38,082 nt of DNA from Fidelibacterota bacterium (GCA_020354025.1 CP070638.1:417341-455422), one strand, 5' to 3'. Positions 29,344 to 38,082 are shown, numbered from the stretch's first letter. A program made the numbers and translations. The notes: generated from the sequence alone by a model not told the origin.

Positions 29344-30147
29344 CTAATGAGAGAAGCGTAGTACCTTACCCGCACCAATGGAAATAAAATCTTCCCCGTA
29401 CGCTTCTTCAAATAGTCCGATAGCCTGCCCACCCGTGCAATGGGTAGCACCACACTTCTTCACACCAAGTAATTTGAACTTCTGAATGATCTCGTTGATC
29501 TGCTCGTCGGAATGTTGTAGCAGATGGAAGCCTCCAAACACCAGGTAGATGTTTTTCTGATGCAGCTCTTTTGCCCTTTCGAGGATATTCACAATGCCTT
29601 GATGGGAGCAGCCGGTGATGATTACCAGCCCCTCTTCCGTATCCAGGATTAACGATTGCTCTTTAATTCCGTAACCCATCTCTCCTGTTAAGTAGGCGCC
29701 CCTGAATATTTCAACTGGCTCACTAACCCGTACCGGTTTGGCGCTCTTCGCTGCTATGTTATCGACAAGTTCTTTACGAAACGAAGCCGGGAAGTAAACC
29801 GTCACCTCGGGATTATTGTCGAGTATCTTGGCAATCCCGCCTGCATGGTCAAAATGGCTGTGTGAGATCACGATCATTTGGACCTTGTCCAGATCAACGT
29901 TTAATCGCTCAGCATTTCGAAACAGGAGATCACTCTTGGCTCCGGCATCAAACAGGATGACCTTTTCCATTCCTTCAATCAGGCATGAAAATCCCCAATC
30001 CGATTCGATCCCCTCAGTGGCGGTATAATTGTCGTATAGCACAGTTAGTACTATCTGGTCTTTTGCCTGCAAGGATGCCGCGGCAAGTCCTGTGAGGAAG
30101 GTGATTAAACAGACTATGATAAAATGAGTGCGTCTATTCCAGCTCAT
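29344..30147 (-). CDS. Exported metallo-beta-lactamase-fold hydrolase, DHPS-like subgroup
   Basis: The 267-residue protein has a signal peptide (hydrophobic 9-25, cut near SLQA-KD) and an MBL fold. The metal ligands are visible: His96, His98, Asp100 and His101 in SHSHFDHAGG; His182 in GCSHQGIVN; His208 in GGFHLL and His236 in ATHCTGG. The GCSHxGIVN and GGFHL pattern is that of the group annotated as 7,8-dihydropterin-6-yl-methyl-4-(beta-D-ribofuranosyl)aminobenzene 5'-phosphate synthase-like. True substrates of that group are mostly unknown, and an exported member is unlikely to do cytoplasmic cofactor synthesis. The ATG at 30147 is chosen because AGGGGGTG lies just upstream and the signal peptide starts there; a longer frame to 30183 exists. 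Confidence 0.85.
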   Translation of the reverse strand: MSWNRRTHFIIVCLITFLTGLAAASLQAKDQIVLTVLYDNYTATEGIESDWGFSCLIEGMEKVILFDAGAKSDLLFRNAERLNVDLDKVQMIVISHSHFDHAGGIAKILDNNPEVTVYFPASFRKELVDNIAAKSAKPVRVSEPVEIFRGAYLTGEMGYGIKEQSLILDTEEGLVIITGCSHQGIVNILERAKELHQKNIYLVFGGFHLLQHSDEQINEIIQKFKLLGVKKCGATHCTGGQAIGLFEEAYGEDFISIGAGKVLRFSH

Positions 30148-30169
30148 TTTGCACCCCCTGTTCGTTGTT

Positions 30170-30259
30170 TCAATTGGTGACACCTTCCGGTTCCCGATAT
30201 TCCATGAGGCCGGAGAGGCAGTACTTCTGTTTGTAGAGAAAGGCGGTGAGTTTACGCAT
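30170..30259 (-). CDS. Possible 29-residue small ORF between the cyclase and MBL genes
   Basis: An ATG at 30259 opens 29 codons, beginning MRKLTAFLYKQKYC and ending EPEGVTN, and stops 22 bases before the MBL start. It fills most of the gap between the cyclase-TPR gene and the MBL gene. The ribosome site is not convincing and I recognise no family. It may be chance. Confidence 0.2.
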   Translation of the reverse strand: MRKLTAFLYKQKYCLSGLMEYREPEGVTN

Positions 30260-30286: not shown

Positions 30287-32575
30287 TCATGGATTCTCGG
30301 CAACTAGCTGTTGGAACCGCGAGTGCTCCCGTAGCGGATCCCACACCCGGTGAAACCGAAGGTCACTAACTCTTGCACCAGCGGGCATCTTCACCAGCTT
30401 TTCTAACAGGTCGATCGCAGCCTCGTATTCACCCACAATAGTATAGATCTCAGCCAGGTGTTGAACATAATCTGGCCCAGCTGTTGCATCCATGGAGACA
30501 GGCAGCGAATCGACGGCTTTCCGGCCTTCCCGGATCGCTTCATTCGTCAACCCAAGGTGGGCATATACCTTGCCTAACGCGGCGTGAATCCTTTCGTGGT
30601 TTGGACTTTCACGCACCTTTTCCTCCAGCAGCGCGCGGGCTTTCTCAAAATGCAAGTCCGCTTCTGCCGGTTCACCCATCAGCTTGAGAATCCAACCGAC
30701 GTAAAATTCTTTCGGCATGAACACTACCGGATCTTCTCGCACATCTTCTGGGATGGCAGTCAGTCGTTCAAGGGCATCATCATAACGGTCGTCTTCAATA
30801 TCAAACTCAACCAATGTCCACATAAGATGGAGTGGATCGGCAAGCCGCATCCCTTCCGCCAGGACCTGTCGGGCGCTTTCTGTATCGCCCGATATGTCTA
30901 CCTGCAGCCATGCCTTGGCGAGATACGGAGCCACATAGTCTGGGGCCAATACTATCGCCCGGTCATAAGCCTGTTCCGCCAGGTCGTCCAAACGCAATAT
31001 CCTGTAGGTACCGCCCAGTTCCAAAATAAGCCGGGCGGACCGGGGATCATATTCCTGTGCGGTCTTCTGATTGGCCAATGCCTCTTCAAACCTGCCCAGG
31101 CGGCGCTGTACATAGGCGATGTTTTCGGCGTGTAATCCATTTCCCGGCTCCAGTCTCTGGGCAAAAAAGAACTGTTCCAGGGCTCTGGTATGATCCCGCA
31201 AACCATAATAATAGTAATAGCCATTGCCCATGCGTACCACCGGATCATCGGGCTTGATGCTCAAGGCCTGGTCAACGGCCTCCCTGGCCGTAGCTAGGCG
31301 TTGGTTGGTGCGATCATATCCGCGCCAGTACATGTATGAGTGGATGCGGCCAAGACGTGCATATGCCTGGGCGAAGCGCGGATCGATCTCTACGGCCTTT
31401 TTATATAGATCGCTGGCGATTTCCAGGGTTTTTCTCTCCCAGCCCTTTTGATCGTATTCATAGGCCCGCAGGTAAAGGTCGTAGGCGGTTGTTGATTCGG
31501 TGGGTAGTTGTTCGATGCGCTGCCTTTCCTCGGGGGAGAGCATGGTTTCCAATGCGGCGGCGATGTTCCGGGCTACGTCGCTCTGTATTAAAAAAATATC
31601 GGTTAGGTCACGGTCATAGGTCTCGGCCCAGAGGTGTTGGTCCGTCCGGGCATCGATGAGCTGGCCGGTGATCCGCACCTTGTCCCCGGCTCGACGGACG
31701 GTCCCTTCCAGGATGTTGGGAACACCCAACTCATTAGCTATAATCCTCAGGGATTTTGGAGAATCCTTGTAAAGCATAGCCGAAGTCCGTGAGATCACTT
31801 TTAGGTCGCCGATCTTTGTCAGATGGGTGATAATATCATCGGTCACTCCATCACTGAAGTACTCATCCTCCTTGCTGTCACTGAGGTTGGCAAAGGGCAG
31901 CACCGCGACGGACTTGGGACCCAGTAAAGGTTCCGGGAGGGCTTCCTTGCCAAAACCAAGCCACCAGACCACCACAGCTATGATGGCCACCCCTGCCGCT
32001 GTTCCCGTCCATGTCCACCAGCGGCGGCCTAGCGGCCGGATAGTGGCCCGCACTTGCTCTACCAGGGGTGCTCTGATCTCTGATACGGCATAGACCTTGA
32101 TAGGGTGATCCACTCCCTTGAGCTTTTTCTCTCCCAGGAGCGTAGCCTCTATGCCCCGCTTGTTGCGGATCGCCTCATAAACCTGCTCGGAAACACAGAC
32201 GCTACCCGGTTCGGCCAACGGCTCAATCCGTGAGGCCACGTTCACCCCATCCCCGAAGACGTCACCATCTTCAAATACCACGTCGCCGATGTGGATACCG
32301 ATACGTAGGCTCAGGTTGGGATCACTTTGGAGGATATGCTGGATCTCCAGCGCGCAGTTGACCGCTTCCACGGCGCTGGCAAAGCTCGAAAGCGTGCCGT
32401 CGCCCATCTCTTTAAGCCACTCGCCGCGGAACTGCTCGATAACCGGCTTTAGCAGCGCCCGGTTCTTTTTAAGAAGCTCAAGCGCCTTCTCCTCGTCCTG
32501 GGACATCATCGCCGTATAGCCCACGATATCAGTGAACATTATGGCGGCCAGTTTTCTCTGTGGGACTACAGCCAT
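30287..32575 (-). CDS. Class III adenylate/guanylate cyclase with single membrane helix, TolB-like domain and TPRs
   Basis: The 762-residue protein has a cytoplasmic cyclase domain at the N-terminus (about 7-165) with metal Asp16 in IMFTDIVGYTAM and Asp59 in EMGDGTLSSF. Lys55, Asp109, Asn112 and Arg116 in FGDGVNVASRIE are the base-binding and transition-state residues. One membrane helix follows (about 188-206). Next is a TolB-like/FlgO-like domain of the COG5616 type (about 220-345, KSVAVLPFANLSDSKEDEYF through HLWAETYDRDLTDIF), then about ten TPR-like helical pairs to the end. With the cyclase inside, the TolB-like/TPR part would be periplasmic and could be the sensor. ATG 32575 is chosen; a GTG at 32584 overlaps the stop of a 32-codon upstream ORF (GTGA) and is also plausible. 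Confidence 0.93.
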   Translation of the reverse strand: MAVVPQRKLAAIMFTDIVGYTAMMSQDEEKALELLKKNRALLKPVIEQFRGEWLKEMGDGTLSSFASAVEAVNCALEIQHILQSDPNLSLRIGIHIGDVVFEDGDVFGDGVNVASRIEPLAEPGSVCVSEQVYEAIRNKRGIEATLLGEKKLKGVDHPIKVYAVSEIRAPLVEQVRATIRPLGRRWWTWTGTAAGVAIIAVVVWWLGFGKEALPEPLLGPKSVAVLPFANLSDSKEDEYFSDGVTDDIITHLTKIGDLKVISRTSAMLYKDSPKSLRIIANELGVPNILEGTVRRAGDKVRITGQLIDARTDQHLWAETYDRDLTDIFLIQSDVARNIAAALETMLSPEERQRIEQLPTESTTAYDLYLRAYEYDQKGWERKTLEIASDLYKKAVEIDPRFAQAYARLGRIHSYMYWRGYDRTNQRLATAREAVDQALSIKPDDPVVRMGNGYYYYYGLRDHTRALEQFFFAQRLEPGNGLHAENIAYVQRRLGRFEEALANQKTAQEYDPRSARLILELGGTYRILRLDDLAEQAYDRAIVLAPDYVAPYLAKAWLQVDISGDTESARQVLAEGMRLADPLHLMWTLVEFDIEDDRYDDALERLTAIPEDVREDPVVFMPKEFYVGWILKLMGEPAEADLHFEKARALLEEKVRESPNHERIHAALGKVYAHLGLTNEAIREGRKAVDSLPVSMDATAGPDYVQHLAEIYTIVGEYEAAIDLLEKLVKMPAGARVSDLRFHRVWDPLREHSRFQQLVAENP

Positions 32576-32580
32576 ACTGG

Positions 32581-32679
32581 TCACTCGTGGAACACCCGGC
32601 GGCGACCTGCCCCGCCATCGGCGGGGTTGAGCTCGGCGAGGAAGGCTGCGAGTCTGGAAGGAGGATCACTCATGGTCAT
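32581..32679 (-). pseudogene. Fossil or leader ORF: truncated N-terminus of the TolB/TPR paralogue family
   Basis: Thirty-two codons read MTMSDPPSRLAAFLAELN, seven inserted residues PADGGAG-like, then RRRVFHE and stop. Apart from the insert this is the N-terminus of the neighbouring paralogue (MMPDPPSRLAAFIAELKRRRVFRVA), and the DNA matches too. The membrane helices that should follow are missing. Its TGA overlaps a GTG that can start the cyclase gene. It is probably the remnant left when a cyclase domain replaced the membrane module. It might still act as a translated leader that couples to the cyclase. Confidence 0.75.
32610..32626. repeat. Small GC palindrome inserted in the fossil leader
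   Basis: CCCCGCC (32610-32616) and GGCGGGG (32620-32626) form a perfect seven-base stem with a three-base loop. It sits inside a net 21-base, in-frame insertion relative to the paralogue's DNA, between the GAGCTCAA and CGCCGCCGGGTGTTC blocks on the minus strand. Confidence 0.6.
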
Positions 32680-32766
32680 GCCTCTTGAAAAAGCATACAG
32701 TAACTAATATGAAGATATTTTATCATAAAGTGCTGGGAATACAAGTAATTAATCCACTCCCCTTTC

Positions 32767-32823
32767 CCCCCTCCCTTTAAAAGGGAGGGGGCGACGCGAA
32801 GTGTCGGGGGCGGGTTTTTTCCC
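32767..32823. repeat. REP-like double hairpin at the 3' end of the TPR paralogue
   Basis: CCCCCTCCCTTT (32767-32778) pairs perfectly with AAAGGGAGGGGG (32780-32791). It is followed by a second small stem, CGACGC/GTGTCG, around GAA (32792-32806), then GGGGGCGGGTTTTTT. The element touches the stop of the first TPR paralogue. The T-run lies on the plus strand, so it is not a normal terminator for minus-strand genes, though the stem could protect the mRNA 3' end. It looks like an intergenic palindromic repeat of the REP/BIME type. Other copies would have to be found elsewhere in the genome. Confidence 0.55.
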
Positions 32824-34664
32824 TACCGAATCCTCTGGCCATGTTCATCGAATACTTCCGTCAGGCCCATTTTCTGGATTAGTGCCTTGAACCGGGGCTC
32901 TGCGCGGAGGAAGTCAAATCCCTGACCATACACGAGCCCTGTAGGGTAATATGACTCTTTGGTGGTATCTTCATAGGCCTTTTCCAGCAGGCTGAGGACC
33001 TTATCCCTCTCGCCCATGATGGCATAAAGACGGGCAGACCAGAATGGATGCTCCTGCTCCCGCTGCTGCAGCTCCCCGGTGGACCTCAGCGAATCACGAA
33101 CTGCGTATACTTTCTCCCGGTTTCCAAGGGCCCACTCGGCCCGCTGCCACAACCAGAAATAAAACGTACTATCCGCCCCGTTAGTGGCTTCCGCGTACGC
33201 TTTTCCCGCCTCGTCGGCGGCTTCCGCGTATCGGCCCTGCTGCATGGCGATTTCATGCTTTGTCAAAGCTAGAAAGTAGGGCGCAGCCATATGGTTGGGA
33301 GCAAGCTCTAAAACGGCCTGCCAGTATTCCAGGGCTTTATCATACTGGCGGGTGTCACGATAAACCTCGCCGATACCCGTCAGGGGCAGAGGATTAAGGG
33401 GATCCAACTCCTGGGCCCGCCGATACTCTTCCAGGCCTTCTTCAGGCCGGCCGGTGCGGCGCAAAAACTCGCCGTATTCGAAGCGGGCATAGACATTATT
33501 GGGATCCAGCTCCAGCGCCCGCCTGAAAGACGCTTCTGCCCCGGGAATGTCATATTTCCGAAGATACTGGTAAATCCCCAGACCCGCATGGGCTTCCGCC
33601 TGGTTGGAATCCAGCTCCAGGGCTTTATCCAACGCCTGTTTCATCCGATTATAGGCATAATCCACACTCCAACCGCCCAACCATTGCATCTGAAGGTAGC
33701 TATGGCCCAAAGCCGCCCAGGCCCGGGCGAAGGTGGGGTTCAGCGCTACGGCCTGCTCCAGGTATTCCACGGCCTTGGGCATGCTCTCTTCACTCTCCAG
33801 CTTACGGAAATGCCACCCCTTGAGATACAGGTTATAGGCCTCGGGATTCACCTGCGGGGCGCTGGCCAGGTCCGCTTCCTCCTCCGGCTTCAGGGCCAGC
33901 CCGATCTCTCCGGCAATAGCCCCGGCAATGGTCTTCTGCAGGGACAGAATGTCGGTCAGGTCCCCCTCGTAGTCGTTGGACCACAGGTGCTCATCGGAGG
34001 CGCCGTGGATCAGCTGCGCCGTGATGCGCACCCGGTCCCCGGCCTTCAGGACCGATCCCTCCACCAGTGCGTCCACATTGAGCTCGCGGGCTATCTCCGG
34101 CATCAGTTTATCGGTATCCTTGTAGCGCATCGCCGAAGTGCGGGAGATCACCTTCAATACACTGAGGCGGTTCAGGTTGGTAATGATAGCGTCGTGCATT
34201 CCCTCCACGAAATAGTCCTCGGCTGGGTCGCCCATCTGGTTGTCCAGCGGTAGGACAGCGATGGAGCTGATGGCGACACCGCCCGGTGAAGGCTCCCTGA
34301 GCCACGACCAGATTCCGAAAGCAATTGCCAGAACGGCGATAGCGGCCAGGGCTTTGTTGCCTACCAGGGGATGGTGCGGGACTTTGGCAGCGGTGGGTTC
34401 CCGCTTGGGCTTGGTCCGCACCAGTCCCTGCTCGGTAATATCAAACGCCCAGGCCAGGGCTACGGCGATGGGGAAGCCGATGAGAAGCAGGACGATGATG
34501 GTGGTTCCTACCCAATCAGGGATATGGAGCGGCTCGAAAATAGCGTCAATGATCTGGAAGACTATAAACGCTACGCCAGCATAGACTATTGCCACCCGGA
34601 ACACCCGGCGGCGTTTGAGCTCGGCGATAAAAGCGGCTAGCCTGGAAGGAGGATCAGGCATCAT
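32823..34664 (-). CDS. TolB-like/TPR membrane protein, paralogue 1
   Basis: The 613-residue protein opens with PPSRLAAFIAELKRRRVFRVA. Two membrane helices follow (about 22-42 and 52-72), then a basic cytoplasmic loop (LVRTKPKREP) and a third helix (about 105-122). Next come a TolB-like COG5616 domain (about 132-255, SIAVLPLDNQMGDPAEDYFVEGM through HLWSNDYEGDLTDI) and TPRs to the end. It closes with PLRAEPRFKAL-like and GLTEVFDEHGQRIR motifs shared with the other two paralogues. Positive-inside charge places the TolB/TPR part in the periplasm. There is no cyclase or other catalytic domain. The start at 34664 lies ten bases after the previous gene's stop; a second ATG follows at once. The function is unknown. 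The TolB-like domain and TPRs suggest binding of peptides or proteins. Confidence 0.88.
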   Translation of the reverse strand: MMPDPPSRLAAFIAELKRRRVFRVAIVYAGVAFIVFQIIDAIFEPLHIPDWVGTTIIVLLLIGFPIAVALAWAFDITEQGLVRTKPKREPTAAKVPHHPLVGNKALAAIAVLAIAFGIWSWLREPSPGGVAISSIAVLPLDNQMGDPAEDYFVEGMHDAIITNLNRLSVLKVISRTSAMRYKDTDKLMPEIARELNVDALVEGSVLKAGDRVRITAQLIHGASDEHLWSNDYEGDLTDILSLQKTIAGAIAGEIGLALKPEEEADLASAPQVNPEAYNLYLKGWHFRKLESEESMPKAVEYLEQAVALNPTFARAWAALGHSYLQMQWLGGWSVDYAYNRMKQALDKALELDSNQAEAHAGLGIYQYLRKYDIPGAEASFRRALELDPNNVYARFEYGEFLRRTGRPEEGLEEYRRAQELDPLNPLPLTGIGEVYRDTRQYDKALEYWQAVLELAPNHMAAPYFLALTKHEIAMQQGRYAEAADEAGKAYAEATNGADSTFYFWLWQRAEWALGNREKVYAVRDSLRSTGELQQREQEHPFWSARLYAIMGERDKVLSLLEKAYEDTTKESYYPTGLVYGQGFDFLRAEPRFKALIQKMGLTEVFDEHGQRIR

Positions 34665-34674
34665 CTTAGCCCGC

Positions 34675-36501
34675 CTACCGAATCCTCTGCCCGTATTCAT
34701 CGAATACTTCCGTCAGCCCTATTTTCTCCAGCAAGGCCTTGAACCGGGGCTCGGCGCGGAGGGAGTCAAATTCTGGGAGATACACGAGATTTATTATTTG
34801 CCCCAATGAAAAGGTATCTTCATAGGCCCTTTCCAACAGGTCTAGGGCTATATCCATCTCCCTCATAATGGCATAGAGGCGCGCAGCCCAGTATGGATTC
34901 TCCTGCTTCCCCCCGGTGAACCTCAGCGAATCACGAACCGTGTATGCTTTCTCCCTATTCCCTAGGTTCCATTCAGCCGCCAGCTGCCCTAATAAAGCCT
35001 CCGCTTTTAACCATTCAATAGCGGCTTCCGCGTACGATTTTTCCGCGTTGTCAGCGGCTTCCGCGTAGCGGCCCTGCTGCATGAGTATGTAATACTCTAT
35101 GCCAACTAGCCATATGCGAGCCTCAAACTGGTCGGGAGAGAGCTCCAAAACGGCCTGGTAGTATTCCTGGGCTTTATCATACTGACGGGTGAGGTAAAAA
35201 ACGTTAGCGACACCCAACAAGGGCTGGGGATTAAGGGGATCCAGCTCCTGGGCCCGCCGAAACTCGGTCAGAGCATCGTCAGGCCGGCCGGTGCGGGATA
35301 AAAACCAGCCATATTCGCAACGGGCAAGGACGAGATCGGGATTAAGCTCCAGCGCCCGTTTGATAGAGGCCTCGCCCCCGGTAATGTCTAATTGTTCACT
35401 GTACTGGTAAAGCCCCAGATACGCATGGGCTTCCGGCAGATTGGGGTCCAGCTCCAGGGCCTTATCAAGCGCCTGTTTCATCCGATTGTAAGCATATTCC
35501 CAACTCCATATGCCGCCGGTTCCTCCCATTAAATAGTAGCTAATGCCCAAGGCCGCCCAGGTCTGGGCGGAGCCGGGGGCCAGCGCTACGGCCTGCTCCA
35601 GGTATTCCACGGCCTTGGGTATGCTTTCTTCAGTTTGCAGATTACGGAAATGCCACCCTTTTAGATATAGAGTATAAGCCTCGGGATTCACCTGCGGGGC
35701 GCTGGTCAGGCGGGTTTCCTCCTCCGGCGTCAGAGCCAGGCCGATCTCCCCGGCGATAGCTTGGGCCACGTCGCTGTGCAGAGACAGGACATCACGGAGG
35801 TCACGGTCATACTCTTCGGCCCACAAGTGTTTGTCTGTCTTGCCATCGATAAGCTGGACGCTAATCCGTACTTGATCTCCGGCTAAGAGCACCGAACCCT
35901 CCACCACCGCATCCACGCTCAGCTCTTTGGCAATATCGGTCGCCAGCATATCGGCATCCTTATAACGCATGGCTGAAGTGCGGGAAGTCACAGTTAGAGT
36001 GCTGATGTGGTACAGCGCGGAAATCAGCGCTTCGTGCATCCCCTCAACAAAATACTCCTGTTCCGGGTCACCCATCAGGTCATCCAGGGGTAGGACGGCG
36101 ATTGAGCTGATGGCGGCGCCGCCCGGCGAGGGCTCCCTGAGCAACACCCAAGCTGCAACGATGATGGCCAGAGCCGCAATAACGGCCAGGGCCTTGTTGC
36201 CTACCCGGGGGTGATGCGGGGCTTTGGCAGCGGCCTCAAGTTTGGGCTTTGCACGAACCAGGCCTTCCTCGGTGAGGTCGAAGGCCCAGGCCAGGGCTAC
36301 GGCAATAGGGAAGCCCAGGACCAGCAATACTACAACTACCTGCCCTATCCAGGGCGGAGTCCCCATGATGTCGAAGATACCATCCACAAGCTGGATGATA
36401 ATGAAAGCCACCCCGGCATACACCACCGCCACCCGGAATACCCGGCGGTGCCGGAGCTCGGCGATAAAGGCGGCGAGTTTGGAGGGAGATTCGGGCGTCA
36501 T
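34675..36501 (-). CDS. TolB-like/TPR membrane protein, paralogue 2
   Basis: The 608-residue protein is a close relative of paralogue 1 over its whole length: SPSKLAAFIAELRHRRVFRVA, three membrane helices with a basic loop after the second, LREPSPGGAAISSIAVLPLDD, a TolB-like domain to about residue 250, TPRs, and FDEYGQRIR at the end. The TPR region differs most, including a run of tyrosine- and alanine-rich repeats (YAEAADNAEKSYAEAAIE). The 10-base gap to each neighbour and the shared strand indicate one transcript. Divergence in the TPRs with a conserved membrane module suggests different ligands for the same output, which is inference. Confidence 0.88.
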   Translation of the reverse strand: MTPESPSKLAAFIAELRHRRVFRVAVVYAGVAFIIIQLVDGIFDIMGTPPWIGQVVVVLLVLGFPIAVALAWAFDLTEEGLVRAKPKLEAAAKAPHHPRVGNKALAVIAALAIIVAAWVLLREPSPGGAAISSIAVLPLDDLMGDPEQEYFVEGMHEALISALYHISTLTVTSRTSAMRYKDADMLATDIAKELSVDAVVEGSVLLAGDQVRISVQLIDGKTDKHLWAEEYDRDLRDVLSLHSDVAQAIAGEIGLALTPEEETRLTSAPQVNPEAYTLYLKGWHFRNLQTEESIPKAVEYLEQAVALAPGSAQTWAALGISYYLMGGTGGIWSWEYAYNRMKQALDKALELDPNLPEAHAYLGLYQYSEQLDITGGEASIKRALELNPDLVLARCEYGWFLSRTGRPDDALTEFRRAQELDPLNPQPLLGVANVFYLTRQYDKAQEYYQAVLELSPDQFEARIWLVGIEYYILMQQGRYAEAADNAEKSYAEAAIEWLKAEALLGQLAAEWNLGNREKAYTVRDSLRFTGGKQENPYWAARLYAIMREMDIALDLLERAYEDTFSLGQIINLVYLPEFDSLRAEPRFKALLEKIGLTEVFDEYGQRIR

Positions 36502-36511
36502 CCTAACTCTC

Positions 36512-38082
36512 TTACCGGACCCTCTGGCCGTATTGATCGAATAATTCCGTCAGTCCTAGTTTCTCCAGCAGGGCCTTGAACCGGGGCTCGGCGCGGAGGG
36601 GATCAAATACCGGCTGAAAGCTTATGATTGAATACATATCCCAAGAACGCTCCCGGTAGGCCTCTTCCAGCAAATTCAGAGCTGCTTCCTTATCGCCCAG
36701 GAATGAGTAGATAACCGCCATGGTAACCAACCATGCTCCCGGTGGCATACCGGCAACCTTTAGGCTGTCAAAATACGCCTGCGCTTCGGTTTTCCGGCCC
36801 ATGGCATAATTGGTGTACATGATACCGGTACGATTTCCCAACTTTTGATATTCTTCAAGAGCCTCCGCATACTTCGTTTTAGCGGAGTATGCCTGCGCCA
36901 AAGTCAAGCGCGAAATGTATTGGCCGGGATCCACTTCCAGGATCCTCTTGAATTGTTCGATGGCCTTATCATACTGACGGCTCATCATGTACATAAATCC
37001 GATGCCGAAGTCGACTTGAAGGGATAGAGGATCGAGCTCCTTGGCCTGCTGCAGTTCAACCAGGGCCTCTTCGAACCGGCCCATTCTGACCAGGAACAAG
37101 CCATACTCGAAGCGGGCATGCACATGATTAGGGTCCAGCTCGATGGCCCGTCTGAAAGCCCGCTCCGCCCCACTCCAGTCCCATTCGCAGTGGAAAAAGT
37201 AAAGCCCCAGGGATATATGAGTATCAGGGATGGTGTCATCCAGCTCCAGGGCTTTTTCAATGGCATCTCTCGCATTTATTCGTGCTTCCCGGCCGGAGAT
37301 AACGCGAAAAAAATCCAGCATAATATACCCCTGAACCAACGACGCATAGGCCCGGGCGAAACTGGGGTCGTTGGCAACGGCCTGCTCCAGGTAATCCACC
37401 GCTTTCTGATAGCCTTCGGGTGTCTCCTTGGTCCGGAAATGCCAGCCCTTAAGGTAGAGGTCGTAGGCCTCGGGGTTCACCGCCCGGGGACTTCCCAGCC
37501 TCACCTGGTCTTCAGGCGTCAGGGCTACCCTAACCTGCTTGGCGATGTCCAGGGCTACTTCCTGGTGGAGGGCCAGCACGTCCCGCAAGGCCCGCTCATA
37601 GGCGTCGGCCCAAAGGTGCTGTTCCCGGCGACCATCGATGAGCTGGGCGTTGATGCGTACTCGCTCCCCCACCATCAACACCGATCCTTCGACTATGGCG
37701 TCCACACCTAAGGCCTGGGCGATCTCTGGAATGGGGGTTCCGGCCTCGCTGAAGCCCAGGGTCGAGGTGCGGGAGATCACCCGCAGGGCACTGATCTTTG
37801 CCAACTCGGTGATGAGGGCCTCATGCATACCGTCCACGAAGTAGTCCTGCTCCGGGTCGCCCATAAGGTTATCCAAGGGTAGTACGGCGATGGAGCTGAT
37901 GGCGGCACCGCCCGGTGAAGGTTCCCTGAGCAGCGCCCAAACCGCCACGATAAAGGCCAGGGCCGCCACGATGCCCAGGGTCCGATTTGTAAGGATTGGC
38001 CGTCGTGAAGTTGCCGTTGCTTGGGTCTTCCCTCTGGTACGAACGATGCCTTTATCGGTGATGTCAAAGGCCCAGGCTAATC
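36512..38082 (-). CDS. TolB-like/TPR membrane protein, paralogue 3 (5' end outside window)
   Basis: At least 523 codons of a third paralogue are present; the frame stays open through the right edge, so the true start lies outside. The edge encodes LAWAFDITDKGIVRTR, the end of the second membrane helix and the following loop. The third helix (LGIVAALAFIVAVWALL), LREPSPGGAAISSIAVLPLDN, the TolB-like domain (EEQ-less variant with RREQHLWADAYERALRDVL) and TPRs follow, ending GLTELFDQYGQRVR. A GTG at 37969 is not the true start. It is followed ten bases later by paralogue 2. It differs from its neighbours mostly in the TPRs. Confidence 0.88.
   Translation of the reverse strand, partial: LAWAFDITDKGIVRTRGKTQATATSRRPILTNRTLGIVAALAFIVAVWALLREPSPGGAAISSIAVLPLDNLMGDPEQDYFVDGMHEALITELAKISALRVISRTSTLGFSEAGTPIPEIAQALGVDAIVEGSVLMVGERVRINAQLIDGRREQHLWADAYERALRDVLALHQEVALDIAKQVRVALTPEDQVRLGSPRAVNPEAYDLYLKGWHFRTKETPEGYQKAVDYLEQAVANDPSFARAYASLVQGYIMLDFFRVISGREARINARDAIEKALELDDTIPDTHISLGLYFFHCEWDWSGAERAFRRAIELDPNHVHARFEYGLFLVRMGRFEEALVELQQAKELDPLSLQVDFGIGFMYMMSRQYDKAIEQFKRILEVDPGQYISRLTLAQAYSAKTKYAEALEEYQKLGNRTGIMYTNYAMGRKTEAQAYFDSLKVAGMPPGAWLVTMAVIYSFLGDKEAALNLLEEAYRERSWDMYSIISFQPVFDPLRAEPRFKALLEKLGLTELFDQYGQRVR

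Follow-up and report, generated by a model that had tools for sequence, protein, structure and literature searches.

Here, we analyzed four genes of an uncultured Fidelibacterota bacterium, which lie on the minus strand at the right end of a 38,082-nucleotide stretch of DNA (GCA_020354025.1 CP070638.1:417341-455422; "the window" refers to this whole stretch) and encode proteins with a TolB-like domain and tetratricopeptide repeats (TPRs). We propose that these proteins are one-component membrane receptors, in which interchangeable membrane/output modules receive, by recombination, a CadC-type periplasmic sensor that moves as a cassette, and we put the probability of this reading at about 0.6. 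One gene encodes a class III nucleotide cyclase in front of the shared ectodomain, and the other three, referred to below as orphans, carry a conserved three-helix membrane module at the same place.

Results

Architecture of the four genes

Four open reading frames (ORFs) were found at 30287-32584 (the cyclase gene), 32823-34664/34700 (gene 2), 34675-36501 (gene 3) and 36512-38080+ (gene 4, cut by the window edge). ORFs, Pfam matches and alignment agree with the first-pass annotation that all four end in a TolB-like domain plus TPRs, and also that one gene combines a class III cyclase with one transmembrane (TM) helix and three have a three-helix module and no catalytic domain. In the Pfam search, Guanylate_cyc was matched in the first ORF only (E 3e-17) and TPRs in 4/4 ORFs. 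The TolB-like domain gave no match in the Pfam search of the four proteins; the NCBIfam TolB, CadC and HilA models reach it with scores below the family cut-offs, and its four copies show 45-69% identity to gene 2 over 155 aligned columns.

The cyclase gene (30287..32575, minus strand, from its ATG; a GTG 3 codons upstream is an alternative start, giving 30287-32584) encodes a catalytic domain (32075..32563; PF00211, residues read directly), a single TM helix (31949..32005; assigned by hydropathy and charge, with basic residues on the catalytic side), the TolB-like alpha/beta domain (31454..31915; alignment and a model with pLDDT >90) and a TPR superhelix (30287..31453; Pfam TPRs and the structure model). 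The catalytic set is complete (D16, D59, K55, D105, N112 and R116) and invariant in five cyclases. Following the spacing of Rv1625c, we take these to be the metal (D16, D59), base (K55, D105) and transition-state (N112, R116) residues, and the Lys/Asp pair at the base suggests adenylate as the product.

Gene 2 (32823..34664, minus strand; ORF, Pfam and model) has its three TM helices at 34299..34604 (residues 21-43, 51-74 and 103-122). Its longest ORF starts at 34700, and the ATG at 34664 aligns with the start of gene 3 (34675..36501; ORF and Pfam). For gene 4 (36512..38080), the N-terminus is lost to a gap of 100 N in the scaffold, which abuts the right edge of the window. The spacing of exactly ten bases holds at both junctions, from gene 4 to gene 3 (GAGAGTTAGG, 36502..36511) and from gene 3 to gene 2 (GCGGGCTAAG, 34665..34674), the latter requiring the gene-2 ATG at 34664. 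LREPSPGG and the ending GLTExFDxxGQRxR are likewise common to all three orphans, and the cyclase has neither. The charge motifs described for the module (KRRR before helix 1 and KPKRE after helix 2) are literal in gene 2 and become RHRR/KPKLE in gene 3; the N-terminus of gene 4 is outside the visible sequence. Genes 2 and 3 show all features of the orphan family (ELKRRxVFRV, three helices, LAWxFDIT, TolB-like domain and TPRs), and gene 4 shows them as far as it is visible.

A shared ectodomain on several bases

A total of 167 distinct ORFs carry the TolB-like domain, and they show the same ectodomain on several kinds of base: 110 were of the three-helix type, 18 had a cyclase and a TM helix, 18 a cyclase without a TM helix, and 2 were fusions of a cyclase and the three-helix module; the 19 others include three Pfam-confirmed kinase proteins (L014, L015 and L062). 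The family ranges over Neomarinimicrobiota, Gemmatimonadota, Acidobacteriota, Verrucomicrobiota and Gammaproteobacteria. In a tree of 83 rows, built on the TolB domain only, which is itself subject to conversion, the label changes between cyclase and three-helix at least 14 times, and a clade with 98% SH-aLRT support mixes the window cyclase, the same-genome three-helix gene L087 (L092 in the tree), the cyclase of genome G006, and three-helix genes of G006 and L008. In the two fusions, both from G006 (L177, 1-2531; L184, 11-3073), the cyclase stands directly ahead of an ELKRR-type three-helix module; L177 continues with TolB/TPR, and the TolB match of L184 is weak. Fusions of a kinase and the three-helix module apparently occur as well, in the Gemmatimonadota genomes G040 and G041, as judged from matches that agree in coordinates and in the length of their ORFs. 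Thus, the idea of one ectodomain on two membrane modules is upheld by a same-genome pair, the tree and the two cyclase fusions.

The window cyclase is chimeric. In its catalytic domain it shares 71% identity with L088, a gene of the source genome for a cyclase-TolB-TPR protein that lacks a TM helix, and in its ectodomain it follows L087, a three-helix gene at a distance of 0.56 Mb (TolB 82%, TPR 72%); the change from one to the other is sharp and lies near residue 205-224. Identity of the ectodomain is 74% to C1:1012843-1014468, and much lower to the neighbouring genes 2-4 (TolB 42-48%, TPR 26-30%). Because the orthologue L166 in G006, an independent assembly, has the same domain order (ectodomain 73% identical), the architecture is not a misassembly. 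The remnant of a three-helix gene in front of the cyclase (see below) and the L087-like ectodomain behind it suggest an origin in a gene like L087, whose three-helix module gave way to a cyclase with one helix. Gene 2 is also a mosaic, switching near residue 260 from an L083-like part (TolB 88% identical in amino acids and 92-95% in nucleotides within comparison windows; L083 is 2.2 Mb away) to a part like L002 of another genome (TPR 73% in amino acids and up to about 90% in nucleotides within such windows). As judged from these sequences, the architecture, the chimerism and the repeated exchange of modules are well supported.

Predicted fold and topology

For gene 2, the model (mean pLDDT 89) consists of helices at residues 21-42, 50-73 and 103-122, the alpha/beta domain of TolB type and a superhelix of TPRs. 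In sequence searches of the PDB, the TolB-like domain had no match with a 4-row profile, and a deeper profile found TPRs only among the 60 matches listed; a fold search was therefore needed. For both models, the CadC periplasmic domain (3ly7/3ly8/3ly9/3lya) matched over the whole target (target TM-score, TMt, 0.69-0.71; root-mean-square deviation 4.0-4.7), and the other top matches among the best 50 listed were TPRs or other helical repeats only. The models contain the alpha/beta sandwich and the following TPR-like helical domain of the CadC fold, and NF007540 reaches the cyclase protein with E 1.6e-7. A CadC-like fold of the TolB/TPR ectodomain is thus supported by prediction.

The TolB/TPR part had been placed in the periplasm in all four proteins, and three predictions agree. 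First, in 70/70 three-helix proteins, basic residues are more numerous on the side taken to be cytoplasmic, as expected from the positive-inside rule. Second, the cyclase domains, which need ATP, sit on the N-terminal side of one or three helices, an odd number. Third, the ectodomains of anchored proteins have less cysteine than those of TM-less proteins, both within the family (pooled values, 0.15 and 0.24% vs 0.56%) and overall (0.34 and 0.28% vs 1.13%), although the Mann-Whitney P of 7e-6 is inflated by relatedness and only five TM-less rows fall within the family. The placement does not extend to every architecture, because TM-less cyclases carry the same TolB/TPR module, which is presumably cytoplasmic there. 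These TM-less cyclase-TolB-TPR proteins (n=18) include one in the source genome, and examples are L093 8140-10062, L012 12867-14732, L178 5381-7408 and L169 549-2750.

Divergence of the TPRs

As the first-pass annotation had noticed, the paralogues differ in their TPRs, and we found that these diverge about twice as fast as the other parts. By NG86 with a codon bootstrap, the ratio of non-synonymous to synonymous change (dN/dS) in six pairs was 0.36-0.64 for the TPRs vs 0.14-0.29 for the remainder (bootstrap support 0.97-1.0). Only in the cleanest pair, gene 2 and L083, is dS nearly equal in both parts (0.52 vs 0.60), and dN/dS is still 0.59 in the TPRs vs 0.29. The modules of genes 2 and 3 differ in dS (1.14 vs 0.42), and such unequal dS within one gene pair supports separate histories of the modules. 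The faster evolution of the TPRs fits diverging specificity as well as relaxed constraint.

Relaxed constraint is also part of an alternative in which the local array consists of decaying repeats with little joint function, and the cyclase landed beside them by chance. In favour of such decay are the stub ahead of the cyclase gene, further stubs where arrays end in several genomes, and N gaps at the repeats; however, the reading frames are open at full length, dN/dS is below 1 in all modules and independent genomes keep the same architectures, so that we consider this explanation very improbable.

The region ahead of the cyclase gene

The cyclase gene stands outside the tight array, 238-247 bp from gene 2, behind a hairpin and a stub. 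The stub (32581..32673, minus strand; MSDPPSRLAAFLAEL-NPADGGAG-RRRVFHE*) is a 30-codon remnant of the N-terminus of a three-helix paralogue. It ends in a TGA that shares bases with the GTG of the cyclase ORF, and homology with the paralogues ends at GTGTTC, immediately ahead of the cyclase. Within it lies a 21-bp in-frame insert (32606..32626, minus strand) with the palindrome CCCCGCC-GAT-GGCGGGG; the dispersed form CCCCGCC-N3-GGCGGGGC occurs at 7 places in the source genome, G000 (the stub and six others), and the reversed control at 0. The hairpin between gene 2 and the stub (32767..32791, minus strand; 11-bp stem) has no T-run and folds unexceptionally (z -1.5). No terminator or promoter emerged from scans of the stretch that separates gene 2 from the cyclase gene.

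Solo N-terminal stubs of three-helix genes were also seen elsewhere (L152-L161), several of them immediately behind an array gene or a cyclase gene; one in the source genome (L155) runs into an N gap. A site-specific insertion element was ruled out for the stubs, as their end points vary among genomes.

Co-occurrence of cyclase and orphan genes

In four less fragmented Neomarinimicrobiota genomes, a three-helix gene lies no more than 10 kb from 7/17 TolB-cyclases vs 0.77 expected (block permutation, P 2.5e-4), and neighbouring pairs of cyclase and three-helix genes occur in G006, G009 and G004. Gemmatimonadota gave different counts: G041 (CP070812.1, L017) has 118 TolB/TPR matches, 101 three-helix matches and one PF00211 match in an ORF without TolB; G042 (CP070722.1, L040) has 39 and 25, with one PF00211 match unfused to TolB; and G040 (CP070815.1, L016) has 48 and 39, with one PF00211 match fused to TolB. 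From G041 and G042, it follows that orphans can be numerous without a cyclase of the TolB-fused type. TolB/TPR genes of Gemmatimonadota are often in tandem, with six in a row in L022.

These data bear on the proposal that orphans pair with the cyclase through TolB/TPR contacts, lending it specificity and using its output. The clustering, the neighbouring pairs and the fusion of a cyclase to the three-helix module in L177 and L184 are in its favour. However, G041 and G042 are rich in three-helix matches without a TolB-fused cyclase and G040 has just one, shared ancestry and recombination between homologous genes also yield clustering, and the ectodomain of the window cyclase is distant from those of its neighbours. 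Hetero-assembly is therefore not supported as a general rule, and the co-occurrence in Neomarinimicrobiota leaves it as a local possibility, which we judge to be quite unlikely.

Genomic setting

The window covers bases 417341-455422 of a 3.40-Mb single-scaffold genome (95% complete), whose closest named relatives are Candidatus Neomarinimicrobiota isolates and metagenome-assembled genomes. When the array was followed rightwards, a check proposed in the first-pass annotation, it stopped at 100 N (L001 10424-10523), so that three paralogues is a lower bound; beyond the gap, on the same strand, is a gene for a LCB5/YegS-like (diacylglycerol-kinase-like) lipid kinase, named from its sequence. N gaps lie at or beside members of the TolB/TPR family at the right edge of the window, in L091 (7195-8250), in L093 (6817-8133) and in L155, and copy numbers in the source genome are therefore probably underestimated. 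The left edge of the window holds the end of a 23S-5S rRNA operon, and downstream of the cyclase gene (29344-30183) is a metallo-beta-lactamase-fold hydrolase with a hydrophobic N-terminus.

Discussion

The receptor reading can be put as a working model. The cyclase gene would encode a receptor cyclase that is sufficient by itself: binding of a ligand or of a partner in the envelope to the TPR/TolB part would change the ectodomain, and the single helix would relay this change to a cyclase homodimer making cAMP (or cGMP). The three tandem paralogues would be orphan receptors with the same sensor on the conserved three-helix module, whose short cytoplasmic N-terminus would have to act through another protein. 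The array would have grown by tandem duplication, with recombination at module borders keeping it mosaic while the TPRs diverge. In this model, sensing and nucleotide output in response are inferred from the parallel with CadC, and the signalling route of the orphans is likewise inferred.

Several points weigh against this model. The N gaps at these repeats could disturb the local copy number and some mosaic borders; relaxed constraint may account for the excess of dN/dS in the TPRs, and some pairs are biased by a dS close to saturation; confidence in the cyclase model is confined to the part from residue 220 onwards, with a poor catalytic half (shallow alignment); and the TM-less relatives show that the module is not tied to the periplasm.

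Instead of receptors, the three-helix proteins could be TPR proteins that serve in the periplasm as scaffolds or chaperones during envelope assembly, held at the inner membrane by a module that is a mere anchor. TPRs are generally scaffolds, PilW, LapB and NlpI models were touched (far below cut-off), and the proteins have no catalytic domain. We regard this as unlikely, because the module is more conserved than an anchor needs, with A71 and W72 invariant and E15, L16, R19, P65, T77 and G80 nearly so, and because it accepts an N-terminal cyclase (L177, L184) and apparently a kinase (G040, G041), as a transducer would.

We also suggest, tentatively, that the three-helix TolB/TPR proteins might form a large family of orphan receptors in the envelope, undescribed in the literature searched, with tandem arrays and as many as about 100 members per genome. 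By recombination at the borders of modules, CadC-like ectodomains would move between orphan, cyclase and kinase bases and so diversify the sensor repertoires combinatorially, and cyclase and kinase members would read the same class of signal. Within the literature searched, no paper relevant to a TolB/TPR cyclase family was found. The size and the mosaic nature of the orphan family are the most interesting lead from this work. The natural chimeras mark swap points between sensor and output, and grafting ectodomains onto the cyclase would make orphan sensing directly testable.

Among known systems, TolB of Tol-Pal has an N-terminal alpha/beta domain resembling residues 130-250 of gene 2 (E 1e-4), but the proteins here have TPRs in place of its beta propeller and are membrane-anchored. 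TIGR04510, a putative peptide modification system cyclase, scores 72 bits against the window cyclase, where its cut-off is 400 bits, and it aligns best over the TolB/TPR part instead of the cyclase. Bacterial class III cyclases (3mr7, Ma1120, LipJ and Rv1264) share the full catalytic set, the nearest solved one being 3mr7 (E 1.8e-33), and differ in their sensor and membrane parts. CyaD/CyaK of Sinorhizobium were set aside as the closest cyclase receptors, the literature found concerning CHASE2 cyclases. The HilA/EilA regulators are matched by genes 2-4 over about 290 residues (NF009037, E 2.5e-11 to 9e-18), far below the family cut-off (589 bits), and have a winged-helix output. HilA is soluble, without a TM helix, and offers a soluble version of the TolB/TPR module like the TM-less cyclases here.

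The closest parallel is CadC, the ToxR-family pH sensor and transcription activator of E. coli. Its periplasmic domain is an alpha-beta sandwich with TPRs (PMC9214523), and it senses pH directly and lysine via its membrane partner LysP (PMC3096576). It differs in its winged-helix DNA-binding output, which is replaced here by a cyclase or a bare three-helix module, and its sequence identity is 13-16%. A Pfam search of the four proteins for an N-terminal winged-helix domain found none, with a cyclase in one and nothing in three, and the one PF00486 match in G000 is elsewhere, in a 228-aa frame. The two disulfide cysteines of CadC also have no paired counterpart (0-1 Cys per ectodomain). CadC and the cyclase protein share the N-in/C-out arrangement with one helix, and the periplasmic alpha/beta plus TPR sensor has the same predicted fold. 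Our analysis thus links to the CadC sensor fold a widespread TPR family whose membrane module has no Pfam name.

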